Shown: piece by piece, positions 2,249 to 49,325 of the stretch
How positions within the stretch are numbered: the stretch's first letter is position 1
Layout of the letters: each line of letters starts with the position of its first letter
Source of the DNA: Deltaproteobacteria bacterium
Lineage (GTDB): Bacteria; Desulfobacterota; Desulfobacteria; Desulfobacterales; Desulfosarcinaceae
DNA: 64,000 nt
Direction: 5' to 3'
Assembly: GCA_021824175.1 (NCBI GenBank)
Contig: JAKALP010000007.1
Location: 1-64,000, forward strand
Made by a program: the position numbers and the translations under genes
Notes under the pieces: model-generated
Told to the model about the DNA's origin: nothing
The model's input: only the letters and a program-made list of their open reading frames with translations
Database searches by the model: none

Positions 2249-2318
2249 TTGAAGGCTGAAGGTTCGTATGGCGGACCGCCGCCAGGCGGCCCCTTCAACC
2301 TTCAGTCTTCAGCCTTGA
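2249..2318. repeat. Period-7 stutter hairpin between lipoprotein gene and pheT
   Basis: The 5' arm reads GAAGGCT then GAAGGTT (2251-2264). The 3' arm (2297-2318) reads, on the opposite strand, AAGGCTG, AAGACTG, AAGGTT, so both arms are tandem copies of a seven-base unit and are inverted to each other. The interior has its own GGCGG-A-CCGCC palindrome. It lies between two convergent genes, so it could also end transcription, but there is no clear T-run. Confidence 0.7.
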
Positions 2319-2319
2319 T

Positions 2320-4737
2320 CTATTGCCCTTGCAATTGAGCTTTGAAGTGCTCCATCAGGTGGCTGGCGATGCGCATGTGCAGCTCATTGACCGTAGCATC
2401 TTCCAAAGTGGTTTCGGCTGAACGGTAAACCATGCGCAACGACACGCTCTTGCGGCCGGTGGCTATGGGCTGGCCTGAAAAGACGGCCACCAGCCGTACT
2501 TCTTCCATCAGGGGCTCATCCATCCGGCGCACATGGGCCAGCAGTGCATCGGCTTCCAGGTCCTGATTCACGATGAGAGAGAGATCCCGTGTGGTGGAGG
2601 GATATTTGGGCAAGGGCTGGGATTGGGTTGCCTCGGGGATATGGGCTCCCAGGCGCAACATTTCCAATTCGAAGATAAATACTTCCTGGCGCAAATCGTA
2701 GGCTGCGAGCACCTGGGGATGCACCTGGCCGATGAGTCCGATCTGATCTTCTCCACAAAGAATTTGGGCGCTGGCGCCGGGTTGGGTGTAGAAGCATTGT
2801 GCTTTGTCGAGACGGGTGAACCGCACCGCGCCCAGGCGCAGCCCATCGAGCAACCCTTCCACGGCCCCCTTGAGATCATAGAAGTCACAGGGTTCGGATT
2901 TGGCATCCCAATGCAGCTCCGCGCGGTCGCCGGTCCACAGGCCGGCCAACATTTCAATTTCATCGGGCTGGGCATTGCTGCCGTTGCTGATGAAGATTTT
3001 GCCGGTTTCAAACAGCTTCAGGTTGCGGTTTTGGCGCGCCATGTTGCGCTTCATGGTTTCAAGCAGACCGGGCACCAGGCTGGTGCGCATCACGGCCTGA
3101 TCTTCGCTCAAGGGGTTGAGCACCGCCAGCTGGCGGCAGCGGGCATCGCTTTCCGGCAAGCGCAGCCGCCGGCAGGAATCGGGGTGGATGAAGCTGTAAT
3201 TGATGGCTTCGGTGAAGCCCATGCCGGTCAGTAAATCACGAATACGCCGGCGCTGACTCAATAATTTGGGTTCCGCCTGCCCCTCGGCCGACATGGCCGG
3301 GAAGGTGACCGGAATCTGATCGTAACCGGCTCGCCGCGCCACCTCTTCCATGAGATCCTCGGGGCGGCTGACATCCACCCGGAAGCTGGGCACCTCAACG
3401 AGCAGGGTGTTGTCTTTGCCGGCCTTGGCCTTGAATTCGATGGCATTGAGCAGCCGGGCCATTTCGGCGCGCGGCATGCCGGTGCCCAGCAACCGGTTGG
3501 CGGCGGCCACGCTCAGGGTGATGGCGGGCGCTTGGGGCAGATCGTATTTGACATCGATGCAGCCCTCCACCAATCGCCCCCTTGCTAGTTGGGTGATCAG
3601 TTGGGCGCAGCGATCCAACGCGTAGAGTGTGCCCTGGGGGTCCACGCCGCGCTCGAAACGGTGGGAGGCGTCCGTCTTAAGCCCCAGGACCTTGGCGGTT
3701 TTGCGGATGCTGATGGGATTGAAATAGGCGCTCTCGATCAAAACGCGGCTGGTGCCGGTTTCGATCTCGGAATTCAAGCCGCCCATGACCCCGCCCACGG
3801 CCACTGGCCGTTGGCCGTCGCAGATCATCAGCATATGGGAATTGAGCCGGCGTTCCTTGCCGTCTAAAGTAGTAAAAAACTCGCCTTCGGCGGCGGTGCG
3901 CACCACGATGCGGTTTTCCGCCAGATGGTCAAAATCAAAGGCGTGCAGGGGCTGGCCGGTTTCCATCATGATGTAATTGGTGACATCCACGATATTATTG
4001 ATGGGGCGCAATCCCACGGAGTTCAAGCGATCCTGCAACCAGAAGGGCGACGGACCGACCTTGACGTTTTCCACCAGCCGCGCCGCATACCGCGGGCAGT
4101 GTTCCGGGGATTGGATGGTCACCGAGGTCAGATCTTCGATGCGGCCTCTGGCTTTGGGCAGGCGCGCCTTGGGACGCTTCACCCGCACGCCCTGAAATCC
4201 GGCGATCTCCCGGGCAATGCCGATCAGGCTCAGACAATCGGCGCGGTTGGGTGTCAGGCTGACCTCCAGAACCATATCGGAAAGTCCCAATGCCCGGTTC
4301 AACGCTTGGCCGTCCGTCAGATTCGGGTCCAGGGCCATCAACCCGGCCCGATCCGGCCCCAGGCCCAGTTCGGCTTGGCTGCACAACATGCCTTGGGAGC
4401 GCTGGCCGCGGATCTCGCCCTCTTTAACCGTCATTCCGCCGAGAAGCTCGCAACCCGGCAAGGCCAAAGGCGCCAGCATCCCCTGGGCCGCGTTGGGCGC
4501 GCCGCAAACGACCTGAAAGCTCGTGCCGCCGGCTTGAACCGTGCACAGTTTCAGTTTGTCGGCATTGGGATGGGGCGCAACGGCCGCGATGCGCGCTACC
4601 ACGACCTTGGCCAGGTAGGCATAGCGATCCTCTACCCCTTCCACTTCCAGACCGGTCATGGTCAACATGTGGGCCAGTTGGTCCACCGGCATCTGGACAG
4701 GCACATACTCGCTGAGCCAGCTTAAGCTTACCTTCAT
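2320..4737 (-). CDS. pheT: Phenylalanyl-tRNA synthetase beta subunit
   Basis: 805 residues, normal length for bacterial PheT. The N-terminus MKVSLSWLSEYVP is typical. Visible domains: tRNA-binding EMAP/OB fold (about 40-150), B3/4 editing domain (about 210-400), B5 domain (about 405-475), catalytic-like core and a C-terminal anticodon-binding FDX-ACB domain (LPKYPSTTRDLSLIVN to the end). With PheS it forms the alpha2-beta2 enzyme that charges tRNA-Phe and edits mischarged Tyr. A TTG six bases upstream would overlap pheS, but the ATG at 4737 fits the conserved start and has an AAGG ribosome site about ten bases before it. It is the last gene of infC-rpmI-rplT-pheS-pheT. Confidence 0.97.
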   Translation of the reverse strand: MKVSLSWLSEYVPVQMPVDQLAHMLTMTGLEVEGVEDRYAYLAKVVVARIAAVAPHPNADKLKLCTVQAGGTSFQVVCGAPNAAQGMLAPLALPGCELLGGMTVKEGEIRGQRSQGMLCSQAELGLGPDRAGLMALDPNLTDGQALNRALGLSDMVLEVSLTPNRADCLSLIGIAREIAGFQGVRVKRPKARLPKARGRIEDLTSVTIQSPEHCPRYAARLVENVKVGPSPFWLQDRLNSVGLRPINNIVDVTNYIMMETGQPLHAFDFDHLAENRIVVRTAAEGEFFTTLDGKERRLNSHMLMICDGQRPVAVGGVMGGLNSEIETGTSRVLIESAYFNPISIRKTAKVLGLKTDASHRFERGVDPQGTLYALDRCAQLITQLARGRLVEGCIDVKYDLPQAPAITLSVAAANRLLGTGMPRAEMARLLNAIEFKAKAGKDNTLLVEVPSFRVDVSRPEDLMEEVARRAGYDQIPVTFPAMSAEGQAEPKLLSQRRRIRDLLTGMGFTEAINYSFIHPDSCRRLRLPESDARCRQLAVLNPLSEDQAVMRTSLVPGLLETMKRNMARQNRNLKLFETGKIFISNGSNAQPDEIEMLAGLWTGDRAELHWDAKSEPCDFYDLKGAVEGLLDGLRLGAVRFTRLDKAQCFYTQPGASAQILCGEDQIGLIGQVHPQVLAAYDLRQEVFIFELEMLRLGAHIPEATQSQPLPKYPSTTRDLSLIVNQDLEADALLAHVRRMDEPLMEEVRLVAVFSGQPIATGRKSVSLRMVYRSAETTLEDATVNELHMRIASHLMEHFKAQLQGQ

Positions 4738-4739
4738 AA

Positions 4740-5762
4740 TCAAAATTGCCTTAAGAACCGCAGATCATTCTCAAAATATTTGCGGATATCGTCTACGCCG
4801 AACTTGAGCATGGTGATGCGCTCCACCCCCATGCCAAAAGCAAAGCCCGTGTAGCGCGTGGTGTCGTATCCCACATTTTCCAACACGGCCGGGTGCACCA
4901 TGCCCGATCCCAGGATTTCCAGCCAGCCGGTCTGTTTGCACACCCGGCACCCTTTGCCGCGACAGATTACGCACTGGATGTCCACTTCGGCGCTGGGTTC
5001 GGTAAAGGGGAAAAAGCTGGGCCGGAATCGTAACCGGGTTTGGGGATCAAACATCTGGTGCACGAATTCGGTCAGGGTGCCTTTAAGGTCGCCGAAGGAG
5101 ACCTTCTCATCCACCAACAACCCCTCTACCTGGTGAAACATGGGGGTGTGGGTGATATCCGAGTCGCAACGGTACACCTTGCCCGGCGCAATGATGCGCA
5201 CCGGCGGCCGGCGTTTTTCCATGACTCGTGGCTGAGTAGGTGAAGTATGGGTGCGCAGGACGATATCCTCGGAGACATAGAAGGTATCCTGCATATCCCT
5301 GGCCGGATGATTTTTGGGTATGTTGAGGGCTTCGAAGTTGTAGTAATCGCTCTCGACTTCCGGCCCCTCCACGACTTCAAACCCCATACGGGTGAAGATG
5401 TCGCAAATGCGGTAGGCGATCTGGGTCAAGGGGTGCAAGGCGCCGGGCGCGGTTTTGCGACCCGGTAAAGACACATCGATGGCGTCCTTGCGCTCGGCGG
5501 CGGCCGATTCGATCCGTGCCATGGCCGCTTGGCAGGCCGCTTCGATCTGCTGCTTGACCTGGTTGGCGCGCCGGCCGGCAGCTGGGCGCTCTTCCGGGGG
5601 CAGCAGGGCCACGGACCGCAGGAATTGGGTGATCACTCCCTTGCGACCGAGGTATTTGGTGTTGAGTTCCTGGACCGCATCGCTGGTCGTGGCGGCCTCC
5701 ACCTCTTTAAGTGCGGCCACGCAAATTTGATCGATGGTTGGCTCCACTGGTGATTGCTCCAC
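4740..5762 (-). CDS. pheS: Phenylalanyl-tRNA synthetase alpha subunit
   Basis: 340 residues, the usual PheS length. The N-terminal coiled-coil tRNA-binding region (LNTKYLGRKGVITQFLRS, PPEERPAAG, DVSLPGR) is followed by the class II catalytic core: motif 2 region APGKVYRCDSDITHTPMFHQ and motif 3 GFAFGMGVERI. The assigned start is GTG; an in-frame TGA lies shortly upstream, so this GTG or the next GTG five codons on are the only options. pheT begins two bases after its stop. The gene is preceded by a 231-base structured leader that may control it separately from rplT. Confidence 0.96.
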   Translation of the reverse strand: MEQSPVEPTIDQICVAALKEVEAATTSDAVQELNTKYLGRKGVITQFLRSVALLPPEERPAAGRRANQVKQQIEAACQAAMARIESAAAERKDAIDVSLPGRKTAPGALHPLTQIAYRICDIFTRMGFEVVEGPEVESDYYNFEALNIPKNHPARDMQDTFYVSEDIVLRTHTSPTQPRVMEKRRPPVRIIAPGKVYRCDSDITHTPMFHQVEGLLVDEKVSFGDLKGTLTEFVHQMFDPQTRLRFRPSFFPFTEPSAEVDIQCVICRGKGCRVCKQTGWLEILGSGMVHPAVLENVGYDTTRYTGFAFGMGVERITMLKFGVDDIRKYFENDLRFLRQF

Positions 5763-5993
5763 TGGCGATATCCCGGATGGTCATTGGGTTCGGCTCTTGA
5801 TCGCCGGCTCTTTGATCTTGGCCCCTTGCGCGGCCTGCATCCTGGCAGGGACACACGAAGCAGAAGAGACCAAAAACAGAGCCTAAGGCTTTTTTGCCGA
5901 GCGGGGTTTCCTTAAGCGTTTGATTGACTCGGAGGAGCTGTCAAACGCCAGCGGCATAGTCGGCGGCCTTAGGCTTCGTTTTGCGCCCGGCGG
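5763..5993 (-). promoter_or_regulatory. Structured leader between rplT and pheS, possible attenuator
   Basis: Read on the minus strand, an outer stem pairs 5976-5966 with 5890-5881 (ten exact pairs, GCCTTAGGCT on the 3' side), enclosing an inner perfect eight-pair stem GCGTTTGA/TCAAACGC (5948-5941 with 5923-5916). The outer stem is followed three bases later by five Ts, giving an attenuator- or terminator-like layout. No Phe-rich leader peptide and no T-box element was recognised. The structure is seen in the sequence; regulation of pheST is inferred. Confidence 0.5.
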
Positions 5994-6341
5994 CTATTGT
6001 TGCGCGGCCAGGGCGGCGACCTTGGTAAAACCGGTGGGGTCGGATACGGCAAGCTCAGCCAGAACCTTACGGTCCAGAGTCACATTGGCTTTCTTCAATC
6101 CGCTGATCAGCTTGCTGTAAGACATATCGTTCATATGGGCCGCGGCGTTGATGCGCACAATCCAGAGCCGTCTGAAATCCCGCTTGCGGTTGCGGCGGTC
6201 ACGATAGGAATACCTCAGCGCTCTGTCCAGGGTGTTGGCCGCCATGCGATAGAGCTTGCTGCGGGCCCCCCGGAAACCTTTGGCCAGCTTAAGCACTTTG
6301 GCGCGCCGGTGCCGGGCCTTAAATCCTCTTTTGATCCGCAT
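5994..6341 (-). CDS. rplT: 50S ribosomal protein L20
   Basis: 115 residues, the standard length for L20, with the diagnostic N-terminus [18 protein letters not shown] and the core [11 protein letters not shown]20 binds 23S rRNA early in large-subunit assembly, and in other bacteria it represses its own operon by binding the leader mRNA. It follows rpmI by 11 bases in the infC-rpmI-rplT order found in most bacteria. The spacer downstream to pheS is long and structured, so pheST may be expressed at a different level. Confidence 0.98.
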
Positions 6342-6352
6342 TTTCTTTCTCC

Positions 6353-6550
6353 TTATCCGTTGGGCAGCAGGCGACGCAGCTCTTTCATATCGCTGGTTTT
6401 GATGGTCTGCTCCATCCGCAGCCGACGTTTGCGTTTCGGGCTTTTGCTCGTCAGAATGTGGCTGGCATGCGATTTGGAAAAGACATATTTGCCTGTTCCG
6501 GTCTTGCGGAACCGCTTGGCAGCCGATCGGTTGGTTTTGATTTTGGGCAT
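6353..6550 (-). CDS. rpmI: 50S ribosomal protein L35
   Basis: 65 residues, normal for L35. The start was set at the ATG giving [14 protein letters not shown], the conserved N-terminus, and this ATG has an AGGAG site about nine bases upstream; seven extra codons are open further upstream but do not belong to the family. L35 is a small basic protein of the large ribosomal subunit. It is cotranscribed with infC and rplT. Confidence 0.97.
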
Positions 6551-6783
6551 GGTCCTTTTCTCCTCATTCAATGTCTTTATCGAATGTCTCGTTCGATAAC
6601 CGTTCTTCGTGGCCCCTTGACTGTCTGCGCTCCAAAAAACGAAGGCGCGAGCACCGGGAACAGACTCCGGCCCACACCAAAAGGGGCTTTACAGTCTCTC
6701 CGTACATTTCAACGGCGCTCGAACGAGCCATTGCCTCGCCTCATCCAGTGGGCGAGATCAATCGTGCTTAAGTTAAGTACTTA
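6551..6783 (-). other. infC-rpmI intergenic region with possible L20-type leader
   Basis: 233 bases without a gene inside an operon whose other ribosomal-protein spacer (rpmI-rplT) is only 11 bases. The minus strand contains several short GC-rich complementary segments (for example TCGCCC near 6745 with GGCGA), which would allow folding. In many bacteria this position carries the RNA site through which L20 represses rpmI-rplT. I could not recognise the L20 pseudoknot itself, so this is a positional suggestion only. Confidence 0.3.
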
Positions 6784-7311
6784 CTACTTTGGCGCCAATA
6801 TCATCATCATGGTGCGCCCTTCGAATTTGGGCAACTGCTCCACGATGGCAAACTCAGTGACTTGGGTTGCGATCTGATCGAGCAGTTCTTTGCCCTTGTC
6901 TGATAGGGCAATCTCCCTGCCCCTGAACATGACCGTTACCTTCACCTTGTCCTTGCGCTCCAGAAACTTTTTGATGTGGCCCAACTTGGTCTGCAAATCG
7001 TGCTCGCCGGTCTTGGGGCGCACCTTGATCTCCTTGAGCTGAAAGGTGGCTTGTTTCTTTTTGGCCTCATGCTGCTTCTTGGTCTGCTCGTACTTGTAAC
7101 GGCCGTAATCCATGATCTTGCACACCGGCGGTTTGGCGGTGGGCGAAACCTCGACGAGATCCAGTCCGAATTCAGCCGCAGCGGTCAGCGCCTGTTGAAT
7201 GGTCAAAATGCCGAGTTGCTGACCGTCTGGATCGATGACGCGAACCTCCCTGGCTCGAATGCCTTGGTTCAACCGTGTGCGTTGGGTCTGGTCTTCCTTT
7301 ACCTGAGCTAT
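6784..7311 (-). CDS. infC: Translation initiation factor IF-3, probable ATA start
   Basis: The body (RVIDPDGQQLGILTIQQAL, VEVSPTAKPPVCKIMDYG, then the C-terminal domain with VKVTVMFRGREIA) is IF-3. If the TTG at 7272 were the start, there would be no ribosome site and the usual N-terminal residues would be missing. Extending in frame gives I-A-Q-V-K-E-D-Q before LNQGIRAREV. The first codon, ATA at 7311-7309, is placed seven bases after a near-perfect AGGAGG. infC is known for rare start codons (AUU in E. coli) that let IF-3 repress its own translation. With this start the protein has 175 residues, a typical length. It is first in the infC-rpmI-rplT-pheST set. Confidence 0.93.
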   Translation of the reverse strand: MAQVKEDQTQRTRLNQGIRAREVRVIDPDGQQLGILTIQQALTAAAEFGLDLVEVSPTAKPPVCKIMDYGRYKYEQTKKQHEAKKKQATFQLKEIKVRPKTGEHDLQTKLGHIKKFLERKDKVKVTVMFRGREIALSDKGKELLDQIATQVTEFAIVEQLPKFEGRTMMMILAPK

Positions 7312-7318
7312 GCCAACA

Positions 7319-7326
7319 CCTCCTCG
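7319..7326 (-). promoter_or_regulatory. Strong Shine-Dalgarno that fixes the infC start at ATA
   Basis: On the minus strand the bases GAGGAGGTGTTGGC precede ATA-GCT-CAG. The AGGAGG core sits seven bases before the ATA codon at 7311, ideal spacing, whereas the nearest common start codon (TTG 7272) has no such site. This is the main argument for a non-canonical infC start. Confidence 0.8.
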
Positions 7327-7479
7327 AAAGCGGGTTAACGCTTTGTGGTCCTATGGCTGAATCGCAGTGTAGCTCTTTGAAATCAGCCGTGATTTACCGC
7401 GGACCGTACTTTTTGAAGTCCCATCTCCTTATATAAACGCCCATGGTTTTGCAAGCGAAAACTGCTTTACCCACACCTA

Positions 7480-7983
7480 TTATGATTGGGTCAGGGTATA
7501 TTGTGCCAGTAGACTACCCCGCCAATAGTCGAGGTGGGCGCGCCCAAAAAATTCTTTGAACAGGATTAGGCTCTCACGACGGCAGATTCCCGGGATGATA
7601 CCGATGCGATTATCCCGATAAAGCGCCGGCCACCCCGACCGATCGCAATGGGCCGCTCCGCCCATGGCATCTTCATAGGCATAGACCAGGGTACCGAGGC
7701 GGCTGAGCAAAATAGCGCTGAAGCACATCAGGCACGGCTCCAGGGTGGCGTAAAGGGTCATCCGGGTCCGATCCCCGAAGTCGACTTTCTTTTCCAGTTC
7801 ACGTAACACAATCATCTCGGCATGATCAATTTCACTGGCCATGGGCTGGGCGGAATTGATGCGCCGGCCCTGGGCGATCACCTGACCGTCATAGACCACG
7901 ATACAACCCACGGGGAATTCATCGGCATCCAAGGCTTGCTGAGCCAGATCCAAGGCTTGGCGCATATATATTTGGTGATTCAT
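7480..7983 (-). CDS. Nucleoside/tRNA adenosine deaminase-like protein (CDA fold)
   Basis: 167 residues. The zinc-dependent deaminase motifs are complete: the HAE motif in EIDHAEMIV carries the zinc ligand and catalytic Glu, and TLEPCLMCFSAIL is the PCxxC motif. The overall layout (MRQALDLAQQALDADEFPVGCIVV) is that of the TadA/nucleoside deaminase branch. It could deaminate the wobble adenosine of tRNA-Arg, but the C-terminal half (YALYRDNRIGIIPGICRRESLILFKEFF) departs from classical TadA, so a free nucleoside or base substrate is also possible. A second deaminase of a different branch lies at 29.5 kb. Confidence 0.85.
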   Translation of the reverse strand: MNHQIYMRQALDLAQQALDADEFPVGCIVVYDGQVIAQGRRINSAQPMASEIDHAEMIVLRELEKKVDFGDRTRMTLYATLEPCLMCFSAILLSRLGTLVYAYEDAMGGAAHCDRSGWPALYRDNRIGIIPGICRRESLILFKEFFGRAHLDYWRGSLLAQYTLTQS

Positions 7984-8036
7984 TGGGTACGATCACTCCT
8001 GCTGACTTTGGCCTCAATGTCGCCCTTGTCAGCGTT

Positions 8037-8603
8037 TTACTTCCTGCTTTGCTCCCAACGGCAGACAGTACTGTCGCATGGGCAACGGTCATCGACCTCA
8101 AAGGCCATCACGATCCGGGCCTCTTTTTGCCCCCGCTCCGGCGCAATCGTTTCCCATACCCAATCCTCCAATATCTGGCTGAGCTCATCATGTGAGGGGA
8201 TCTGTTCAAGTCCCGACGCGACCACTTTGCCGGTTCGGCCGTCGAGAATATCGGCCGTTTCCCCATTGGTAACCACTACTACCGGGATCTGATATGGTGC
8301 CGCCAAGCGCGCCAGAGCCAACGCCGGCCGGTGGCGGGTCACCAGGGAGCCGGGGCCATAATGGATCAAGATTGCGGCCCGGCCGTCGATATTACAAATA
8401 AAGGTCACCGGCACCCGGGCGCATTTATGATCTGCCTGGACCGTCACCGAATGGGCCGCCAGGATATCCGTCTGGGGATACCCCTTGGTCAGCACCAGCA
8501 GCCGGGCGATTTTCTGGCGGTAGCGCTCATCATGCGTATCATCGATCATCCGGCCACTGAGAAAATCGGTTAACTGGCCCAAAATGAGATGGTGATCGTT
8601 CAT
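8037..8603 (-). CDS. Type I restriction R-subunit N-terminal-like (HSDR_N) domain protein
   Basis: 188 residues from the ATG at 8603; upstream codons in the same frame run into divergent-promoter DNA and were discarded, and GGAAAGG lies before the chosen ATG. The sequence (YRQKIARLLVLTKGYPQTDI, then VTFICNIDGRAAILIHYGPG and PVVVVTNGETADILDGRTG) matches the stand-alone HSDR_N_2 family, which has a nuclease-like fold, common in Desulfobacterota. No helicase or methylase partner is near, so it is not part of a visible restriction system. It precedes the deaminase gene by 53 bases on the same strand and diverges from the dGTPase-like gene. Function unknown. Confidence 0.75.
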   Translation of the reverse strand: MNDHHLILGQLTDFLSGRMIDDTHDERYRQKIARLLVLTKGYPQTDILAAHSVTVQADHKCARVPVTFICNIDGRAAILIHYGPGSLVTRHRPALALARLAAPYQIPVVVVTNGETADILDGRTGKVVASGLEQIPSHDELSQILEDWVWETIAPERGQKEARIVMAFEVDDRCPCDSTVCRWEQSRK

Positions 8604-9822: not shown

Positions 9823-9839
9823 ATGACCATCACCTAACC

Positions 9840-11191: not shown

Positions 11192-11202
11192 CATCCTCCC
11201 GC

Positions 11203-11230: not shown

Positions 11231-11248
11231 TCTACGCCATAACATAAT

Positions 11249-11338
11249 TCATGTTGAGAGGCGCGAAGGAACTGGCCTGACGACCGCCCGGCAACCTACC
11301 CAATAAGGTGCCAAATCCAGCCCGCAAGGGAAACATGA
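11249..11338 (+). promoter_or_regulatory. SAM-I (S-box) riboswitch aptamer
   Basis: Conserved S-box segments occur in order: GAAGGAACTGGCCTGACGA, then CCCGGCAACCT, then AAGGTGCCAAATCC. The P1 stem is exact: TCATGTT (11249-11255) with AACATGA (11332-11338). S-box aptamers bind S-adenosylmethionine. The downstream genes metY, metX and metW make methionine, the precursor of SAM, so the logic fits feedback repression. An expression platform with a terminator follows directly. Confidence 0.93.
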
Positions 11339-11391
11339 GGTCAGCGGAGACAACATGGGTAATTGACCTCTCTATTTTGAGAGGTTTTTTT
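11337..11391 (+). terminator. Expression platform: antiterminator and intrinsic terminator of the SAM-I riboswitch
   Basis: Terminator: ACCTCTC (11366-11372), loop TATTTT, GAGAGGT (11379-11385), then seven Ts. Antiterminator: GAGGTCA (11337-11343) can pair with TGACCTC (11364-11370); it would break both the 3' strand of P1 and the 5' arm of the terminator. The two folds are mutually exclusive, as expected for SAM-induced transcription termination before metY. Confidence 0.88.
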
Positions 11392-11439: not shown

Positions 11440-12753
<1,314 letters not shown>

Positions 12754-12785
12754 TTGAACAGAAGAAAATGATGCCCCCTCACCCA

Positions 12786-12808
12786 ACCCTCTCCCAATGG
12801 GAGAGGGT
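12786..12808. repeat. Perfect palindrome in the metY-metX spacer
   Basis: ACCCTCTCCC, loop AAT, GGGAGAGGGT: ten exact pairs, no T-run on either side, inside an operon. It resembles a dispersed CCCTCTCCC element seen near genes in many proteobacteria. A related imperfect copy (CTCTCTCC-ATG-GGGAGAAAGAG) lies near 15270. Could stabilise or process the operon mRNA; inference only. Confidence 0.6.
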
Positions 12809-12871: not shown

Positions 12872-12961
12872 ACGGGCAACCCCGCCAGAGAACGGCGGGA
12901 TCAAACATCTGATTGAACAAATTAAGGTGTTTGACGGGCAAACGGGCAACGGGCAAACGCA
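12872..12961. repeat. ACGGGCA(A) stutter repeat abutting the metX start
   Basis: ACGGGCAA (12934-12941), ACGGGCA (12942-12948), ACGGGCAA (12949-12956) and a partial ACG follow each other with a 7/8-base period. An isolated ACGGGCAAC lies at 12872, followed by a CCCGCC/GGCGGG hairpin (12881-12899). The array ends a few bases before the metX ATG at 12965 and takes the place where a ribosome site should be. Confidence 0.7.
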
Positions 12962-12964
12962 ACC

Positions 12965-16570: not shown

Positions 16571-16693
16571 TTCGTTATTCGTTATGCGTTATTCGTTATA
16601 CGTTATTCGTTGAGTCGTTAGGTCATTCGTTGATAGTTTGAAATTGATCATTGAATAAACGAATCAACGAATCGATCATTCAACGAATCAACG
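16571..16693. repeat. Period-7/8 stutter array in the trpC-trpF spacer
   Basis: One side reads CGTTATT, CGTTATG, CGTTATT, CGTTATA, CGTTATT, CGTTGAG from 16573 to 16614, exact seven-base steps. The other side (about 16654-16693) is an AACGAATC-type array with eight-base steps in inverted orientation. The array overlaps the last codons and stop of trpC (S-L-I-R-stop lies in CGTTGATTCGTTGA on the minus strand) and reaches to two bases before trpF. Confidence 0.8.
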
Positions 16694-17505: not shown

Positions 17506-17580
17506 TCGAATCGTCCATTCGTTCTGTAATCATCGAAATTGACAACGAATCAACCAATAAACGTATCAACGAATCAACGC
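17506..17580. repeat. AACGAATC-type stutter repeat in the trpD-trpC spacer
   Basis: Copies of AACGAATCAAC-type sequence (ACAACGAATCAACC, then ACGTATCAACGAATCAACG) with eight-base steps, plus a partial opposite-strand copy CATTCGTTC at 17515. It belongs to the same family as the trpC-trpF array 900 bases away, so the operon carries two related arrays around trpC. Confidence 0.65.
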
Positions 17581-18637: not shown

Positions 18638-18765
18638 AGTTTAAAGTGTTAAGTGTAAAGTTTTAAGTTAAGGTATCCTGCCTTTTTTGAAAAAAGGGCC
18701 TCAGCATCACTCAATAAAATCGACCCGATCCTTAACTTTAAACTTTCTACTTTAAACTTAAAACT
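18638..18765. repeat. Period-7 stutter hairpin in the trpG-trpD spacer
   Basis: Arm 1 (18638-18673): AGTTTAA, AGTGTTA, AGTGTAA, AGTTTTA, AGTTAAG, G. Arm 2 (18730-18765): C, CTTAACT, TTAAACT, TTCTACT, TTAAACT, TAAAACT. Five heptamers each, in exact register, and arm 2 is the reverse complement of arm 1 with a few mismatches, so the RNA can form a long AU-rich hairpin with a 56-base loop. This is the clearest example of the class. Confidence 0.85.
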
Positions 18766-26869: not shown

Positions 26870-27251
26870 AGATTTTTATCTTCGCCTTTGGCCCATCTTA
26901 AAAATTCCAATTTGATTCCAAGTGGTTCCTCACCAAATGGACGCCATTTGGCACACGCTGGCAACCCCCTCTTGCGCCATGGCATGGGTTATATTAGATC
27001 AACCCTATAAGGTATCGGCTTTTTTGTGGAATAGATTACAGGACATCTCAAAAAAGCCTTTTGACCCAAGCTCTTGGTGGAAGCAAAATTTAAATCATCG
27101 AAATACTTAATTATACCTATGACTTAAATTTTACCTCGGCCGCGATCTTGGCTTAAAATCCATTTTTAGAGATGGCTTGTAACGGAATCCCCTACCGTGG
27201 GAATAGTTTCTTTCAGACAAGTATCATAGACACTGGGCCGGAGATGATGCC
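26870..27251. other. 382-base divergent intergenic region, nothing recognised
   Basis: Separates the divergent diguanylate cyclase and histidine kinase genes and should contain both promoters. I saw no convincing sigma-70 pair, no sigma-54 site in correct register (a TGGCAC/GGCAA pair near 26949 is one base off), no hairpin with T-run and no ORF with coding character. It is more A+T-rich than its surroundings. Confidence 0.5.
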
Positions 27252-39236: not shown

Positions 39237-39312
39237 CACCACAGTGGCCACAGAGATCGCAGAGGAGAGAAATAATTATCTCTCCTCTGTGATCTCCGCG
39301 TTCTCTGTGGTG
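39237..39312. repeat. Period-9 stutter hairpin (CACAGAGAT family)
   Basis: Arm 1 (39237-39270) steps by nine: CACAGTGGC, CACAGAGAT, CGCAGAGGA, GAGA. Arm 2 (39279-39312) is its inverted copy: TCTCCTCTG, TGATCTCCG, CGTTCTCTG, TGGTG. The loop is eight A/T bases. The innermost GCAGAGGAGAGA/TCTCTCCTCTG pairing is nearly perfect. The same nonamer family recurs at 43.2 kb. Confidence 0.82.
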
Positions 39313-43090: not shown

Positions 43091-43168
43091 AATTGCATCT
43101 GGGCTTCTACACAATTCTTTCATATTGGACACAATGTATTATCGATCTTTCGCTGATGGTACAATTCA

Positions 43169-43336
43169 GCGCAAGGCGGTAGAGATCGCCGAGGAGCGCA
43201 GAGGTTTCGTGAGATCCAATCATTGGGCCGACGATTTACCGGCATGCAGTTCAGGCAGGAAAGTATTGTATGAAGGACATCTGTTCTTTTTACACTGACT
43301 CCGCGCTTCTTTGCGGTCTCTGCGCCTGCGTTGAAA
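43169..43336. repeat. Period-9 stutter arms (GCAGAGG family) upstream of nhaA
   Basis: Arm 1 (43169-43204): GCGCAAGGC, GGTAGAGAT, CGCCGAGGA, GCGCAGAGG. Arm 2 (43299-43336), inverted: CTCCGCG, CTTCTTTGC, GGTCTCTGC, GCCTGCGTT. Arms are separated by about 95 bases. The second and third units align unit by unit with the hairpin at 39.24 kb (GGTAGAGAT with CACAGAGAT, CGCCGAGGA with CGCAGAGGA), so both derive from one family. Confidence 0.75.
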
Positions 43337-43383
43337 TAGTTACCACCAATTATTCGACCTTAGCAATTTTTGAAAGAAGGATC

Positions 43384-44718
43384 ATGACCCCAGCAACCGC
43401 TAAAGAAGTAAACGCCTTCCAACGCTTCTTCAGCCATGAAGTTCTCGGCACCCTGCCGCTTTTCGTAGCCACGGCCGCGGCCCTGCTCTGGGCCAATCTG
43501 CACTTTTCTTCCTATCAGCATTTCTGGCATGCAGAGTTGGGCATCTACATCGGCCCTTATGGCGTCACCAAATCCCTGGCCCACTGGATCGACGAAGCCT
43601 TGATGGCCATCTTCTTCTTCACCGTGGGGTTGGAGATCAAATACGAAGTATTGGTGGGAGAGCTGGCCTCCTTTCGCAAATCCTTGCTGCCCATTGTGGG
43701 CGCCGTGGGCGGCATGCTGGTGCCGGCCTTGGTGTACGTGGCTTTTAACCGCGGCCAAGCCACTCTGCATGGTTGGGGCATTCCCATGGCCACGGACATC
43801 GCCTTTGCCCTGGCTGTGCTGGCCACCCTGGGAACACGCGTGCCGCTGGGGCTTAGAGTATTTTTATCAGCCCTGGCCATTGCCGATGATTTGGGCGCGG
43901 TCATGGTGATCGCTCTTTTCTATTCTCAGAAGATCGCCACAGGTTACCTACTGATGGCTGTGGGCTTCATCCTGCTGCTGATCATTGCCAACCGCTACTG
44001 GGTCCAACACGCTCTGGTGTATGCTCTGTTGGGCATCGGCGTGTGGGCCGCCTTTTTAGGGGCCGGCATCCACGCCACGGTGGCCGGCGTGCTGGTGGCG
44101 GCCTTTGTGCCGGCCCGGGGGGAATATGCGACCGATGCCTTCCTCCAGCGCGTCAACCACCACCTGAAGCAGTTTCAGTGTGCGATAGACGATTGTGGCT
44201 TTTCGCTGTTGACCAATAGCCGCCAGTTGGATGCGGTGCGCGCCATCGAAGAGAACTGCTTTGAGGTGGAGCCACCGCTGCAACGGCTGGAATTTGCCCT
44301 GCACCCGTGGGTGACCTATCTGATCATCCCCCTCTTTGCTCTGGCCCATGCAGGTCTGTACTTGGGCGACCTCAATGTATCCCAGGCCATAGCGCACCCC
44401 TTAACCTTGGGGATATTACTAGGCCTTCTGGCCGGCAAACCGGCTGGCATCGCGCTGTTTACCCTGGCAGTGTCCAAGGTCTTCAGAATCGAACTGCCCC
44501 AAGGGGTTACGGCCCACCATATCATGGGCGCCGGCTGCCTGGGGGGTATCGGCTTTACCATGTCGCTATTTATCAGCAATCTCTCCTTTACCGATCCACA
44601 AATGATTGATTTTGCCAAACTGGGCATTTTGCTGGCTTCGCTGCTGTCGGCCGTGATTGGCGCTGTAATTCTATTCAAAGGCCGGCCCGTGACTGAAATG
44701 CCCGCTGAGAAGAGATGA
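43384..44718 (+). CDS. nhaA: Na+/H+ antiporter NhaA
   Basis: 444 residues from the ATG at 43384 with GAAGGA before it. About 12 membrane segments. The ion-binding Asp pair is in SALAIADDLGAVMVI, and the flanking MATDIAFALAVLATLG and AGIHATVAGVLVA are NhaA signatures. It exchanges sodium for protons across the inner membrane, helping pH and salt balance. A roughly 80-residue insert (YATDAFLQRVNHHLKQFQ onwards) is usual for the long NhaA class. Single gene, repeat elements on both sides. Confidence 0.95.
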   Translation: MTPATAKEVNAFQRFFSHEVLGTLPLFVATAAALLWANLHFSSYQHFWHAELGIYIGPYGVTKSLAHWIDEALMAIFFFTVGLEIKYEVLVGELASFRKSLLPIVGAVGGMLVPALVYVAFNRGQATLHGWGIPMATDIAFALAVLATLGTRVPLGLRVFLSALAIADDLGAVMVIALFYSQKIATGYLLMAVGFILLLIIANRYWVQHALVYALLGIGVWAAFLGAGIHATVAGVLVAAFVPARGEYATDAFLQRVNHHLKQFQCAIDDCGFSLLTNSRQLDAVRAIEENCFEVEPPLQRLEFALHPWVTYLIIPLFALAHAGLYLGDLNVSQAIAHPLTLGILLGLLAGKPAGIALFTLAVSKVFRIELPQGVTAHHIMGAGCLGGIGFTMSLFISNLSFTDPQMIDFAKLGILLASLLSAVIGAVILFKGRPVTEMPAEKR

Positions 44719-44728
44719 ATAATTCCGT

Positions 44729-44794
44729 CATCCGTGCCATCCGTATAATCCGTGGTAAAAATATAGACCACGGATTACACGGATGGCACGGATG
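44729..44794. repeat. Period-9 stutter hairpin (CACGGATG family)
   Basis: Arm 1: CATCCGTGC, CATCCGTAT, AATCCGTGG (44729-44755). Loop of 12 A/T-rich bases. Arm 2: CCACGGATT, ACACGGATG, GCACGGATG (44768-44794). 26 of 27 positions pair. It lies 11 bases after the nhaA stop and 34 bases before the glycosyltransferase. It could fold in mRNA but has no T-run. Confidence 0.88.
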
Positions 44795-44827
44795 AGAAAA
44801 AAGCCTTGAAGAAAGATTTACTACCAA

Positions 44828-45940
44828 ATGGTTCAACAAAAAAAGATTCCCACCATCGCCTATTTCATCAGCTATCACGGTTTTGGCCACGCCACGCGCG
44901 CGGCGGCGGTCATGGCGGCTTTCAAACGCCTCCTGCCCCAAGTGCGCTTCGAACTTTTCACCAATTGCCCCCGGCCCCTTTTTGAAAGCGCCATCGGCGA
45001 TGATTTCGGCTACTTCGATCTCCAGGCCGATGTGGGCGTCGTCCAGCGCTCGCCCCTGGAAGAAGACTTCGAGGCCACCGGCCGGAAGCTATCTGCCTGG
45101 ATCCCCTTTGATCCCCGTCTTATTGAGCGAGCGGCCCAACATCTTCAGCGCCAGGGCTGCCAACTGGTCATTTGCGAAATTTCGCCCCTGGGGATAGCCG
45201 CGGCCAGGGGTGCGGGAGTGCCCAGCGTGCTCATCGAGAATTTCACCTGGGATTTCATTTACGAGCCCTACCTGGAGCAAGTACCGGGTTTGGAGATGTA
45301 CTCCTACTACCTGAAGAATATCTTTTCCCAAGCGGATCTGCATATTCAAACCGAACCGGTGTGCCGGCCGGCGGAGAGCGCCATCCAGGTGGCTCCCATC
45401 AGCCGCATGCCCCGAACCGCGCCGGAAGAGACCCGCACCAGGCTCAAGGTGCCTTTGGATGCCAAAATGGTGGTGGTCTCCATGGGCGGCGTGCCGGATC
45501 AATTTCGTTTCCTGGGCCGTCTGCCGGCCGCCATTGAGCCGTATATCGTGATCCCCAGCGCGGACCATCTCTACTGCGGTCATGAAAGGATCATTTTACT
45601 GCCCACCCATTCGGAATTCTTCCACCCCGATCTGCTGCTGGCCGCGGATTTGTTGATCGGCAAAGCCGGTTACAGCACTATCGCGGAGGTGTATCACACC
45701 GGCGTGCCGTTCGGCTATGTGCCGCGACCCCAGTCGCCGGAGACCCCGGCCCTGGAACGCTTCATCAAAGACCATTTATCGGCCCAAGCCATTTCCGCCC
45801 AGGAGTACACCGAAGGCCGCTGGTTTGCCATGCTGCCCGATCTGCTGAAAATGCCCCGCGGCCGCCCAACCCAGAAGAACGGCGCCGATGCCGTGGCCCG
45901 GCTGCTGGGCGAGCGGTTTTTCAGCCTCCCGACTTTATAG
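44828..45940 (+). CDS. Glycosyltransferase-like protein (GT-B, MGT/GT28-like)
   Basis: 370 residues. An N-terminal Rossmann-like half begins IAYFISYHGFGHATRAAAV, the usual GHxxR loop of GT-B enzymes that act on lipids or undecaprenyl carriers. The C-terminal donor half has VVVSMGGVPD, LLAADLLIGKAGYSTIAEV and GVPFGYVPRP, matching the nucleotide-sugar site of UDP-glycosyltransferases such as MurG-like or MGT proteins. Donor and acceptor cannot be deduced. It stands alone between repeat-bearing spacers. Confidence 0.8.
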   Translation: MVQQKKIPTIAYFISYHGFGHATRAAAVMAAFKRLLPQVRFELFTNCPRPLFESAIGDDFGYFDLQADVGVVQRSPLEEDFEATGRKLSAWIPFDPRLIERAAQHLQRQGCQLVICEISPLGIAAARGAGVPSVLIENFTWDFIYEPYLEQVPGLEMYSYYLKNIFSQADLHIQTEPVCRPAESAIQVAPISRMPRTAPEETRTRLKVPLDAKMVVVSMGGVPDQFRFLGRLPAAIEPYIVIPSADHLYCGHERIILLPTHSEFFHPDLLLAADLLIGKAGYSTIAEVYHTGVPFGYVPRPQSPETPALERFIKDHLSAQAISAQEYTEGRWFAMLPDLLKMPRGRPTQKNGADAVARLLGERFFSLPTL

Positions 45941-46048
45941 CGATCCGCCTTTTAGCGTCTGCCTGCCTGGAGAAGATGACCTATGCTCGGGTATCAGGGG
46001 CGCTGTCAGTGGAGTTACCTACCAAGACCACAATTGTTGAGGTGAAGG

Positions 46049-46115
46049 TCGTACTCGTGCTCGAAATGTGTGAAAAGGCCCTGCGAGTACGCGTACGAGT
46101 ACGAGTACGAAAACA
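46049..46115. repeat. Period-6 stutter element (TACGAG family), copy 1
   Basis: A short arm TCGTACTCGTGCTCG (46049-46063) is followed by GAGTAC, GCGTAC, GAGTAC, GAGTAC, GAAAAC (46085-46114). The last 29 bases from GTACGCGTACG (46087-46115) are identical to 49297-49325. It sits in a 376-base gap (45941-46316) that otherwise shows no gene. Confidence 0.82.
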
Positions 46116-46316
46116 TCAGGCTTGTTTTCCATGCTGCAAGCAACGCCTGTACCTCGCACCCCCTACTTGTAGGTTGCGCACCTGCTTAAATCCAGTTAAA
46201 ATGCCTTTTACATTCGCTTTCGTTGCCTGCGCCAGCGCTGATTGGACCCTGCTGATTCCCTCTCTGATCTGAATTCGGCTTGAACTGACCCTTTAACCAA
46301 TGCCGGTGTTGAATCC

Positions 46317-49268
46317 ATGATGCGCGAAAAAGACAAATTCGAATACTCCTTCAAGATCTTCTACGAACTCATGGCCCGGCGGGTTCAGGAGATCCTGCTC
46401 ATCTCCAGCCCCTATGACGCCTATATTATGGAGGAAGATGGCCGCCTGGCCGGCCGCATCATCCATGAATACCGCGGTTTGAACCTGACGCGGCCGCCGC
46501 GCATCACCTGGGCCTCTTCCGGCCGCGAGGCCCTGGCCCTGCTGGCCCAACGGCCCTTTGACCTGATCATCACCATGACCCGCCTGGATGACGTAGAACC
46601 CATGCTGCTGTGCGGTGAGATCAAGGGCCGCCATCCCCAAATGCCCATTTACTACCTTTCTCACGAAGCTATTTCCCAAGCCGAGTCTCAGGATATGAGC
46701 TGCCGCTGGATCGACCGCCAGTTTGTATGGCTGGGCAATACCGATCTGCTGCTGGCCCTGATCAAAAATACCGAAGACCGCATGAATGTGGATTTCGACA
46801 CCCAGGCGGCCGGCGTGCGGGTCATTTTGATCGTGGAGGACTCACCGCTGTATCTCTCCTCTGTGCTGCCCTTTATCTACAAGGAGATTGTGCGCCAGAC
46901 CCAATCCGCCATGGATGAATCGCTCAATGAAGAGCACCGCATCCTGCGCATGCGCGCCCGGCCCAAGATCCTGACGGCCGAAACCTTCGAAGAGGCCCAG
47001 GCCCTTTACGAATGCTACGCGCCTTTCATGCTCACGGCATTGTGCGACGCCCGCTTCCCGCGCCACGGCCGGTTGGCTGAGGACGCCGGCCTGGCCTTGC
47101 TGACCCATATTCAACAACTCAATCCCGAATTGCCGCTGATGCTGCTGAGCTCGGAGCCGGCCAACCACGCCAAGGCCGATCGCTTAGGCGCCCACTTCAT
47201 CGACAAAAACTCCTCTTCCCTGCACGATGACATCCGCGCTTTTTTTGTGCGCAACCTCGGCTTCGAAGAGTTTGTCTTCCGCTTGCCCGACGGCCGGGCG
47301 GTGGGCCGGGCCGCGGATTTGCGAGCCATGACCGAAGTGTTGAATACGATCCCCGATGCTTCCATTGAGTATCACGCCCGGAGGGAGGATTTCTCCACTT
47401 GGATGATGGCCCGCATGGAGATCGAGCTGGCTCAGACCCTGCGCGCGGCCAAAGTGGCCGATTTCACCGGTATCCCCCAGGTGCGCGATTACATCCTGCA
47501 AGAGATTGTCACCCAACGCAAAGAGCGGCAACGAGGCATCGTGGTGGAGTTCTCCCATGAGCGCTATGACCCCGCGGCAGAATTCGCCAAGATCGGCAGT
47601 GGTTCATTAGGTGGGAAAGCCAGGGGGTTGGCTTTTTTCTCCTCATTGCTGAAAAACAGCCCCGAACTGCTGAGCAAATATCCCCAGGTGGAGATCGGCA
47701 TCCCCCGCACGCTCGTCATCAGCACCGATGGCTTTGAACAGTTCTTAAGTAAGAACCGATTGCGCCTTGATGCCGTCGAAGCTATGAGCGATGGGGAGAT
47801 CGAAGCTCTTTTCGCCCAGGCCCGATTTCCCGAAACCATGAAGAATAAGCTGGCCTCTTTTCTTCAGGCCATTCAAAAGCCTCTGGCCGTGCGATCTTCC
47901 GGGCTGCTGGAAGATGCCCAGGCCCAACCCAGCGCCGGTATGTATAAGACCGTGATGATCCCCAACCAGCACCCCAACCCGGAGATCCGATTGGCGCAAC
48001 TGCTGCGGGCCGTTCAGCGGGTGTATGCTTCGACCTATTTCGCGGCCCCCCGGGCCTTTGCCCGCCGCTCGCCCTATCGTACCGAAGAGGACCGCATGGC
48101 GGTGATCATCCAGCCCATCGTCGGAACACTTACTGATGGCTATTACTACCCGGCCATCTCAGGAGTGGCCCAATCCTTCAATTTCTATCCGGTCTCCTAC
48201 ATGAAGGCCGAAGAGGGGATCGTGCATGCGGCCATGGGACTGGGGCGCACGGTGGTGGAAGGCGGCGTCGCCCTGCACTTCTCGCCCCGCTATCCCCAAC
48301 TGCTGCCCCAGATCGACAGCGTGCCCAAGGCCCTGAAAAATGCCCAGCGCTTCTTCTACGCCCTTAACATGAACAAGGCCGCCGACGCCGCCATGGATCC
48401 GGATTCGCTGATCGAATCGCTATGCGTGGATACCGTGACATCCCATCCGGCGGTTCAGGCCCTGGCCAGCACCTACGATCCAGCCGATCAACGCATCCGG
48501 GATTCAGCCTCGCCAGAAGGACAAAAGCTGATCACCTTTGCCGGGGTATTGAAATACCATCTCTTCCCCCTGGGCGCCATTGTCGAGGATCTTCTGGAAA
48601 TAGGACGGCGCGGCATGGGCTGTCCGGTGGAAATCGAATTCGCGGTGCGCTGGCCCCAGTCGCCCCAAGAAAAGTACTTTTTTGCTTTACTGCAAATCCG
48701 GCCCATGGCCAAACGGGAGCAAAGCATGCCCATCGCCATCGCCGCCGAAGAGGAACAGCGCGCCGTTTGCCTGTCCCGGCGCGCCCTGGGAAACGGCCTG
48801 TTCCAGGAGGTACGCGATATTGTCTTCGTCAAGCCGGAAACTTTTGACCCAGCCCTTACCGTGGCCATCAGCGCTGAAATCGCCTCCTTAAACCAACGGC
48901 TGGAGCAACAAGGACGGCGCTATGTGCTGATCGGCCCCGGCCGCTGGGGCTCGGCGGACCGCTGGCTGGGCATTCCCGTGGGGTGGAAGGATATCTCCGC
49001 CGTGGCAGCCATTGTGGAGACCTCGGCGGCCAATCTCAATGCCGATCCCTCCCAGGGGAGCCATTTCTTTCATAATATTACTGCTCTGGGAATCGGTTAT
49101 TTCACCATTACTTCACCTGAGAACGGGCACCTGGACTTGGCCTGGCTGCAGGGATTAACGTCAGCCGGTGAAACCACCCACGTTCGTCATGTGACCCTTG
49201 AACAGCCATTGACCATCAAAATCGACGGCAAATCGTCGGTGGGCGTGATCATGGCGGAAGAACAATGA
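46317..49268 (+). CDS. PEP/pyruvate-binding protein with two receiver-like domains
   Basis: 983 residues. Residues about 20-150 form a receiver-like domain whose phospho-acceptor position is lost (FDLIITMTRLDD). A second receiver-like region (about 165-330, VILIVEDSPLYLSS, LTALCDARFP) keeps acidic residues. The C-terminal 550 residues are a PPDK_N / PEP synthase ATP-grasp domain (GSLGGKARGLAFFSSLL, LAVRSSGLLEDAQ, IGPGRWGSADRW). The phosphohistidine and PEP-binding catalytic domains of PEP synthase are absent, so it is not a complete enzyme. Such proteins recur in Desulfobacterota and may sense or use ATP/PEP; role unknown. Confidence 0.82.
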   Translation: MMREKDKFEYSFKIFYELMARRVQEILLISSPYDAYIMEEDGRLAGRIIHEYRGLNLTRPPRITWASSGREALALLAQRPFDLIITMTRLDDVEPMLLCGEIKGRHPQMPIYYLSHEAISQAESQDMSCRWIDRQFVWLGNTDLLLALIKNTEDRMNVDFDTQAAGVRVILIVEDSPLYLSSVLPFIYKEIVRQTQSAMDESLNEEHRILRMRARPKILTAETFEEAQALYECYAPFMLTALCDARFPRHGRLAEDAGLALLTHIQQLNPELPLMLLSSEPANHAKADRLGAHFIDKNSSSLHDDIRAFFVRNLGFEEFVFRLPDGRAVGRAADLRAMTEVLNTIPDASIEYHARREDFSTWMMARMEIELAQTLRAAKVADFTGIPQVRDYILQEIVTQRKERQRGIVVEFSHERYDPAAEFAKIGSGSLGGKARGLAFFSSLLKNSPELLSKYPQVEIGIPRTLVISTDGFEQFLSKNRLRLDAVEAMSDGEIEALFAQARFPETMKNKLASFLQAIQKPLAVRSSGLLEDAQAQPSAGMYKTVMIPNQHPNPEIRLAQLLRAVQRVYASTYFAAPRAFARRSPYRTEEDRMAVIIQPIVGTLTDGYYYPAISGVAQSFNFYPVSYMKAEEGIVHAAMGLGRTVVEGGVALHFSPRYPQLLPQIDSVPKALKNAQRFFYALNMNKAADAAMDPDSLIESLCVDTVTSHPAVQALASTYDPADQRIRDSASPEGQKLITFAGVLKYHLFPLGAIVEDLLEIGRRGMGCPVEIEFAVRWPQSPQEKYFFALLQIRPMAKREQSMPIAIAAEEEQRAVCLSRRALGNGLFQEVRDIVFVKPETFDPALTVAISAEIASLNQRLEQQGRRYVLIGPGRWGSADRWLGIPVGWKDISAVAAIVETSAANLNADPSQGSHFFHNITALGIGYFTITSPENGHLDLAWLQGLTSAGETTHVRHVTLEQPLTIKIDGKSSVGVIMAEEQ

Positions 49269-49291
49269 GAGGCGTATGGGAGTGGTTGCGT

Positions 49292-49325
49292 TTTTCGTAC
49301 GCGTACGAGTACGAGTACGAAAACA
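49292..49325. repeat. Period-6 stutter element (TACGAG family), copy 2
   Basis: TTTTCGTAC (49292-49300) and GTACGAAAA (49315-49323) form a nine-pair palindrome around tandem GTACGA units. From 49297 on it is identical over 29 bases to copy 1 at 46087. The two copies lie just before and just after the PEP-binding gene and are in the same orientation. Confidence 0.85.

Follow-up and report, generated by a model that had tools for sequence, protein, structure and literature searches.

Intergenic tandem-unit hairpins in a Desulfosarcinaceae genome, probable ORF-less copies of small elements with IVP/S23 or GxxExxY genes

A stretch of 64,000 nucleotides from a member of the Desulfosarcinaceae (Deltaproteobacteria bacterium, GenBank assembly GCA_021824175.1, contig JAKALP010000007.1, positions 1 to 64,000; hereafter the window) contains ten intergenic sites at which short degenerate units are repeated in tandem at a fixed period and, at most of the sites, form two inverted arms. 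What are these hairpins, and how does a single architecture come to be built from so many unit sequences? The same architecture is found in full-length form around two classes of small genes, which we refer to as carriers, one encoding IVP/S23 four-helix-bundle proteins (PF05635) and the other GxxExxY proteins (PF13366). The window sites are probably copies that lack an open reading frame (ORF), similar to miniature inverted-repeat transposable elements (MITEs), of very small dispersed elements in which two unit-array arms surround a single ORF.

The ten sites and the intergenic DNA of the genome

Genes of the window were called with a simple hexamer model, giving 39 intergenic spacers, each of which received a tandem score (identity at lags 5-12) and an ungapped inverted-repeat score, both judged against dinucleotide-preserving shuffles. 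For the individual sites, intervals were drawn round each coordinate, and inverted scores were compared with 60 shuffles and tandem scores with 200. The sites are as follows, with the shuffles scoring as well shown in parentheses.

Site 2249: 2250-2316, no strand; ORF-less hairpin of period 7 (GAAGGCT-type); arms 2250-2264 and 2297-2311, 12.5 (0/60); tandem at period 7, 10.5 (0/200).
Site 12872: 12934-12959, no strand; single degenerate array of AACGGGCA units, period 7-8 (period 8 by Tandem Repeats Finder); no significant second arm.
Site 16571: 16571-16693, no strand; TTCGTTA/TTCGTTGA hairpin, period 7-8, in what the operon order suggests is the trpC-trpF spacer; arms 16587-16619 and 16658-16693, 13.5 (0/60); tandem 24.0 (0/200).
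Site 17506: 17517-17579, no strand; GTTGATTC-type array of period 8 in the trpD-trpC spacer; tandem at period 8, 14.0 (0/200); inverted 7.0 (15/60), second arm not significant.
Site 18638: 18638-18765, no strand; AAGTTTA-type hairpin of period 7 in the trpG-trpD spacer; arms 18638-18673 and 18730-18765, 21.0 (0/60).
Site 39237: 39237-39312, no strand; CACAGAGNN hairpin of period 9; arms 39237-39270 and 39279-39312, 19.0 (0/60); tandem 7.0 (9/200), not significant.
Site 43169: 43165-43335, no strand; decayed CGCAGAG-type hairpin with a loop of about 95 nt; arms 43165-43203 and 43299-43335, 13.5 (0/60); tandem not significant (46/200).
Site 44729: 44728-44795, no strand; ATCCGTGNN hairpin of period 9 (family E); arms 44728-44756 and 44767-44795, 26.5 (0/60); tandem at period 9, 12.0 (0/200).
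Site 46049: 46049-46110, no strand; CGTACN hairpin of period 6 (family D); arms 46049-46063 and 46096-46110, 12.5 (0/60); tandem at period 6, 16.0 (0/200).
Site 49292: 49292-49323, no strand; nearly loop-less CGTACN hairpin of period 6 (family D); arms 49292-49306 and 49309-49323, 12.5 (0/60); tandem at period 6, 16.5 (0/200).

A preliminary description of the window had reported fixed-period tandem units and inverted arms at these sites, and nine of the ten pass at least one of the shuffle tests. Complementary terminal arms forming a stem beat all 60 shuffles at eight sites, the misses being 12872 (5/60 shuffles as good) and 17506, and the tandem score beats all 200 at seven, the misses being 12872 (3/200), 39237 and 43169. 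Site 12872 passes neither test alone, and its units match the arm of an IVP carrier of the same genome (L359) with a score of 23.5 against a shuffle maximum of 14.5. Among the 39 spacers, a tandem score of at least 10 is seen in 7 (shuffle mean 0.05), an inverted score of at least 12 in 10 (0.1), and both scores of at least 10 in 6 (0.0).

The source genome (G000) is 6.07 Mb in 61 contigs, of which we sampled 792,724 bp (about 13%, biased to contig starts) as 521 intergenic and 521 coding chunks. Tandem scores of at least 10 are present in 83 intergenic chunks (2 when shuffled) and inverted scores of at least 14 in 86 (0 when shuffled), although single inverted matches include ordinary terminator-like hairpins; both scores reach 10 in 56 chunks compared with 0 shuffled, where independence would give 27.2. 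The corresponding numbers for coding chunks are 15, 0 and 5. The scores therefore lie far above those of shuffled intergenic DNA, and a rough extrapolation from this biased sample gives about 430 such elements in the genome. Chunks overlap by up to 100 bp, such that a single element, L096 8278, contributes two entries to the scan and to the mismatch count given below.

The sampled elements consist of tandem degenerate units paired on opposite strands, with loops of 3 to 217 nt and periods of mostly 6-9, and each of the ten window sites falls between two ORFs called as protein genes, with none inside a 23S or 16S rRNA gene. They constitute one class with a common architecture and many unit sequences, rather than a single repetitive extragenic palindromic (REP) or MITE family, as had been suggested. 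The accompanying statement that unit sequences differ from site to site holds only in part: there are many, but 46049 and 49292 share CGTACN, and 16571 and 17506 are close relatives.

Arms around IVP/S23 and GxxExxY genes

IVP/S23 genes are enclosed by inverted arms of tandem units. In the arm test, the 500 bp to the left of a gene were aligned locally with the reverse complement of the 500 bp to the right, and a locus passed with a score of at least 14 and an arm tandem score of at least 7; each search supplied its best loci, at most 30, out of more matches. The test is passed by 18/24 IVP loci from this genome and its relatives (24 of 30 loci, those cut by a contig end being excluded), by 26/29 from other-phylum genomes selected for family E (29 of 30), and by 23/28 in an evenly drawn phylum-wide set taken best loci first (28 of 29), the two later sets excluding loci with less than 100 bp of flank. 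Family E arms, however, adjoin none of the 29 IVP genes in the genomes chosen for family E, and the two with E pieces have them more than 700 bp away. Because family E has a period of 9, a second ORF was predicted for the period-9 families; GxxExxY was the candidate named, and this was written down before the test result was seen. GxxExxY loci pass in 24/30 cases with 600-bp flanks (30 of 31 loci, same flank exclusion) and in 20/28 phylum-wide (28 of 29), their arm units including CACAGAG, CACGGAT, CACGAAT and CGCAGAT plus linkers, typically CACNNAKNN-like.

Pooled with 500-bp flanks, 67/81 IVP and 45/59 GxxExxY loci pass, whereas shuffled flanks pass in 0/81 and 1/59. The pooled GxxExxY set excludes the fragment L424 and adds L436; cut loci (L383, L399, L400, L388, L391, L392, L406, L408, L416, L420 and L424) had been retained with an assumed gene position. 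Control genes rarely pass: trpD 0/23, Y1 transposases 1/20, small genes of this genome 2/112, small genes of congeners 0/57, and small genes in family E loci 5/109, three of which are in loci (L278, L195 and L283) that also have GxxExxY or IVP matches.

The full-length element has a single ORF of about 110-130 codons between its arms. All three IVP genes of this genome pass the arm test, as do two of its three GxxExxY genes, C14 (L020) and C52 (L436). A complete E hairpin precedes the C52 gene and an E arm follows it, and genome G079 contains a GxxExxY gene with E hairpins on both sides. Within 811 kb of family E loci, all six GxxExxY ORFs are no more than 300 bp from an E array, and the single IVP ORF is 1431 bp away. 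Unit period follows the class of ORF, being 7 or less in 57/67 IVP carriers (mostly 7 nt) and 8 or more in 43/45 GxxExxY carriers (8-10 nt; p = 1e-18), and arm similarity tracks protein similarity in both classes (Mantel p = 0.008 for IVP, 0.002 for GxxExxY).

The window sites share their ends with IVP or GxxExxY carrier arms. When each site was aligned to the carrier arms and compared with the best of 40 of its own shuffles, all ten matched some arm better than the shuffles, seven being IVP-type and three (39237, 43169 and 44729) GxxExxY-type by arm match. Besides 12872, the margins are wide at 18638 (35.0 against a shuffle maximum of 16.0), 39237 (19.0 against 14.5, with related copies elsewhere in the genome), 44729 (30.0 against 13.5, carrier L422), and 46049 and 49292 (22.0 and 19.0 against 12.0, both carrier L365). 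At 18638 the homology to IVP carrier arms extends beyond the units, and by its sequence this site is apparently an ORF-less copy of an IVP element.

The trp operon provides a view of such a site in related genomes. The trpG-trpD spacer is a 179-nt gap containing the hairpin here and is only 13-17 nt in some relatives, and by eye the 18638 hairpin is in none of 12 relatives displayed. Because it is missing from all 12, some with such short spacers, the comparison points to a gain in this lineage. No array is seen by eye at the 17506 spacer in the 12 relatives displayed.

A different source of dispersed palindromes would be REP or REPIN elements moved by REP-associated tyrosine (RAYT, Y1) transposases, and the genome has seven Y1_Tnp matches, five of which are long (324-340 aa) and RAYT-like (L158, L159, L160, L025 and L021). 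Tandem scores of at least 10, however, are found in only 2/14 Y1 flanks, neither of them a window family and together no different from the background of 83/521, and Y1 loci had passed the arm test only once in 20. None of the seven Y1 genes is flanked by window unit families, on which ground the link was rejected; we regard it as scarcely credible.

Among the proteins of G000, NCBIfam models identify the four helix bundle (TIGR02436) and GxxExxY (TIGR04256) families, and one IVP protein matches the DivGenRetAVD (Avd) model with E = 2e-7, below the model cut-off. Searching solved structures with the GxxExxY sequence gives nothing convincing (best E 0.59). A predicted model (pLDDT 91) has its best fold match in 4ic1 (SSO0001; E 3.5e-4), which we take to be a Cas4 nuclease, with only two matches at or below 1e-3; further PDDEXK-type nucleases rank below. 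A PDDEXK nuclease fold is thus predicted for the GxxExxY protein, a family for which we know of no function. Both families are widespread, with IVP matches in 62/99 and GxxExxY matches in 40/99 genomes of the phylum-wide draw.

Unit families, their distribution and their variation

Clustering of the elements in the genome sample reveals several recurring unit families, although the clusters are chained and the two largest contain a few unrelated palindromes. They are GTTGATT[CG] with CCCGTTNN (24 members), GGCACAAA/GGGACTGA (15), CGTACN or family D (11), ATCCGTGNN or family E (10, one counted twice), CACAGAGNN (4), CGTTGCGC (3) and further smaller families; GTTGATTC and AAGTTTA are also among the units of the families. 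The family E consensus is longer than a single unit and consists of ATCCGTGNNATCCGTGNNATCCGTGGT, an A/T loop and then the complement, with sharp ends. Because family E shares this longer consensus, the elements are dispersed copies that were not invented independently at each site. The loops of long-looped families appear by eye to be unrelated from copy to copy.

Copy number of families D and E differs sharply between congeners. Using a pattern of three units with no more than one mismatch, the 112 family E arm matches here divide into 57 forward and 55 reverse; the 10 congeners have none, and of 59 other genomes searched only two (G032 and G038) have any. Family D has 154 matches here and 62, 38, 8, 4, 2 and 2 in six congeners (overlapping matches counted); the remaining 33 of 40 genomes lack it. 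In public genomes there are exact family E matches in at least 118 stretches, the 80 titled ones including Verrucomicrobia, Planctomycetes, Acidobacteria, Bacteroidetes and Chloroflexi. The pattern has 22 specified bases and by our own estimate a chance expectation there of less than 0.1, and some of the matches, for example in Streptomyces and Natrialba, resemble coding repeats by eye. The family E consensus is unmatched in plasmids. The exact pattern is present in 51 stretches of viral contigs (loci L295-L345), a count in which coding repeats and true elements are not told apart.

Among other repeats, we note a long inverted repeat of a different dispersed kind, with a common core like GCGGCCCAGACTGTTTGAGCGCAGCGAG, that occurs in two distant relatives, at L064 and L073 (congener G002) and L071 (G034). 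Within the window, 27050-27167 belongs to a different repeat family, palindromic but not tandem and about 145 bp long (a cluster of 10 in the sampled stretches), that is probably an ordinary MITE-like family, and a CCCTCACCC...GGGAGAGGG palindrome at 12776-12808, just before the 12872 site, has similar pieces elsewhere in the genome by eye. An S-adenosylmethionine (SAM) riboswitch at 11246-11341 lies ahead of an ORF at 11455, and an Rfam scan of the window identifies only this riboswitch and two tRNAs.

The preliminary description had offered three origins for the hairpins, namely slippage followed by inverted copying, reverse-transcription-like priming (taken up below with Avd), and selection for folded spacer RNA. 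The first fares poorly when differences between neighboring units are examined, as these are concentrated at fixed phases. In 77 arrays of this genome, some of them low-complexity or overlap duplicates, the phase statistic reaches 4338 where the null maximum is 1944, and IVP arms give 828 (null maximum 638); GxxExxY arms have too few mismatches for the test (20, null mean 7, maximum 26). In family E (8 of the 10 cluster members, two being left out, one as a duplicate) the 7-nt cores are changed at 8/352 positions and the 2-nt linkers at 27/64, cores being altered about 18-fold less often. Slippage would copy linkers along with cores and is therefore disfavored, whereas conserved cores with free linkers fit sites of protein recognition. 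Independent slippage with template-switch inverted copying at each site would explain the more than random sharing of linker variants between the two arms of an element, the linkers agreeing in 14/24 readable pairs of family E arms (null maximum 10) and in 5/11 pairs once the commonest pattern is removed. However, it would have to arrive at the same long family E consensus in dozens of loci, other phyla included, and at arms enclosing two specific ORF families, and we consider it very improbable.

The origin by selection, in which the elements are RNAs selected for folding, either for processing or for 3'-end protection, resembles that of rRNA intervening sequences (IVSs) cut by RNase III. The arms do pair closely, the linker agreement could be read in the same way, and in the part of the literature consulted, IVSs with the same ORF family are described as RNase III substrates (PMC4990558). 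Wobble pairs, however, are not favored on the sense strand of co-directional spacers, where arm mismatches are 28 G-U and 34 A-C (p = 0.53; a small sample), and the linkers of the two arms disagree in 10/24 family E hairpins. This explanation is improbable, though less so than slippage.

A further explanation is that the arms are binding sites of global regulators or nucleoid proteins (IHF/HU-like), as in Geobacter metallireducens, and the small ORFs are incidental. The conserved cores and free linkers resemble protein sites, and the same architecture is interpreted in this way in the sections seen of PMC2700814. Against this, the unit families track the enclosed ORF, family E rises from no arm match in congeners to 112 here, and divergent spacers are depleted of the elements, which are present in 5/99 chunks from divergent spacers compared with 51/422 others (p = 0.046), or 5/95 compared with 43/276 among chunks of 150-500 bp (p = 0.008). 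It is the strongest of these alternatives but nonetheless unlikely.

Mobility, known relatives and implications

Several observations weigh against reading the window sites as ORF-less copies of carrier elements. A carrier ORF is present at none of the ten sites, and there is no IVP match in the window. Class assignment at four sites rests on margins of only 1-1.5, these being 2249 (IVP-type, 13.0 for the closest carrier arm, shuffle maximum 12.0), 16571 (IVP-type, 16.5 against 15.0), 43169 (GxxExxY-type, 15.0 against 14.0) and 17506, which is nearly tied and ambiguous (IVP 15.0, GxxExxY 14.5, shuffle maximum 14.0). Period alone does not settle class, since two IVP families here (CCCGTTNN and GGGACTAA) have period 8. 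The arm test, whose thresholds were fixed on the first IVP set and unchanged afterwards, is failed by 14/81 IVP and 14/59 GxxExxY loci, including the C32 GxxExxY gene (L411) of this genome, and some permutations in the IVP Mantel test exceed the observed value. Of the family E stretches in other phyla (at least 118), 39 have outward-only arms, 4 inward and 75 single, so that in most pairs the arms face the opposite way from those here. Target-site duplications of 3-9 nt at 18 family E hairpins are within the range of permuted flanks, and empty sites were compared at the trp operon only, with no exact junction drawable, such that movement of copies is inferred.

Relationships to known systems provide a context for these elements. 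IVSs of 23S rRNA genes, which carry the same IVP gene (S23p/IVP ORF, PF05635), are known cousins, having inverted terminal arms around an ORF of the same family. In Coxiella, the 23S IVS is reported to have tandem heptamers (GACAGAT) upstream of the ORF that vary in number between strains, and the function and origin of IVS proteins are called unclear after 25 years (PMC4990558). The present elements are unlike IVSs in lying between protein genes, in being mostly ORF-less, multicopy and of many unit families, and in having a second, unrelated ORF class (GxxExxY) with the same architecture. No window site has an S23p/IVP ORF inside, and the full-length relatives do, including the three IVP genes here. 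The only 23S rRNA match here is 2400 bp long and shows no obvious insertion.

The predicted global regulator sites of G. metallireducens (classes 1-4) are described in the excerpts of PMC2700814 as tandem degenerate 7-8-nt repeats on opposite strands at variable distance, an arrangement also found here; classes 1-3 have 8 to 24 pairs, and the fourth set resembles multicopy sequences of many genomes. By eye only, one of the consensus sequences listed for them, TWGTTGAY, is similar to our CGTTGATT units, and they differ in that the same excerpts read them as regulator or IHF/HU sites and state no IVP or GxxExxY link. In Geobacter bemidjiensis, 12% of intergenic regions hold direct repeats (6-42 nt) and palindromes, and 31% of those hold several; these families are multicopy like ours, and no carrier ORF is named in the portion consulted (PMC2996986). 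Cyanobacterial heptamers, GGGNATC of Xanthomonas and Nostoc, and TAACTGA of Beggiatoaceae are likewise lineage-specific intergenic heptamer arrays, but are described, in the parts seen of PMC4692102 and PMC4679880, as direct arrays with G-quadruplex or translational roles, with one indirect repeat for TAACTGA and no carrier gene. Open-licence PMC text yielded no link of intergenic tandem hairpins to IVP or GxxExxY genes, and no exact match to any of six unit strings.

Like MITEs, the window hairpins are short and ORF-less, with inverted ends and copy bursts shared with a coding partner. Unlike MITEs, they have no target duplication that we could find (18 family E hairpins), and the partner encodes no known transposase; the shared ends are common to IVP or GxxExxY carriers, whereas Y1 transposase loci are not flanked by them. 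IVP proteins are described, in the part of PMC10053308 consulted, as distantly related to Avd, a partner of the reverse transcriptases of diversity-generating retroelements. Unlike those systems, this genome has only one partial reverse transcriptase match, no search having been made beside IVP genes. As to a possible origin of the hairpins by reverse-transcription-like priming, the single match speaks against it and the distant kinship with Avd for it.

A plausible scenario is that the encoded IVP or GxxExxY protein recognizes the unit cores in each arm, which would cause arms and ORF to travel together, and that copies with arms but no ORF are multiplied in trans by a duplication-free route. 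Insertion would occur without target duplication and be tolerated mainly away from divergent promoters. By analogy with rRNA IVSs, the hairpin in a transcript would probably be cut by RNase III, and an element inserted into an operon such as trp would then do almost no harm.

A broader proposal, which we advance tentatively and consider rather less secure than the assignment of the window sites, is that these are minimal selfish elements of a new class, one with no known transposase. Its arms would consist of protein-recognition units cognate to a tiny IVP/S23 (Avd-like) or GxxExxY gene, and amplification in trans would have raised arm-only copies to hundreds per genome in many phyla. Members or remnants of the class would include rRNA IVSs, the 'global regulator sites' of Geobacter and perhaps the heptamer repeats found between genes in other bacteria. 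This would bring together intergenic tandem repeats of no known cause, IVP/S23 proteins and GxxExxY proteins. If it is true, tiny mobile elements are what two common protein families without an assigned role belong to, the arms offer direct biochemical substrates for testing IVP and GxxExxY proteins, and spacer hairpins of this kind should not by default be taken as regulatory sites or RNA genes.

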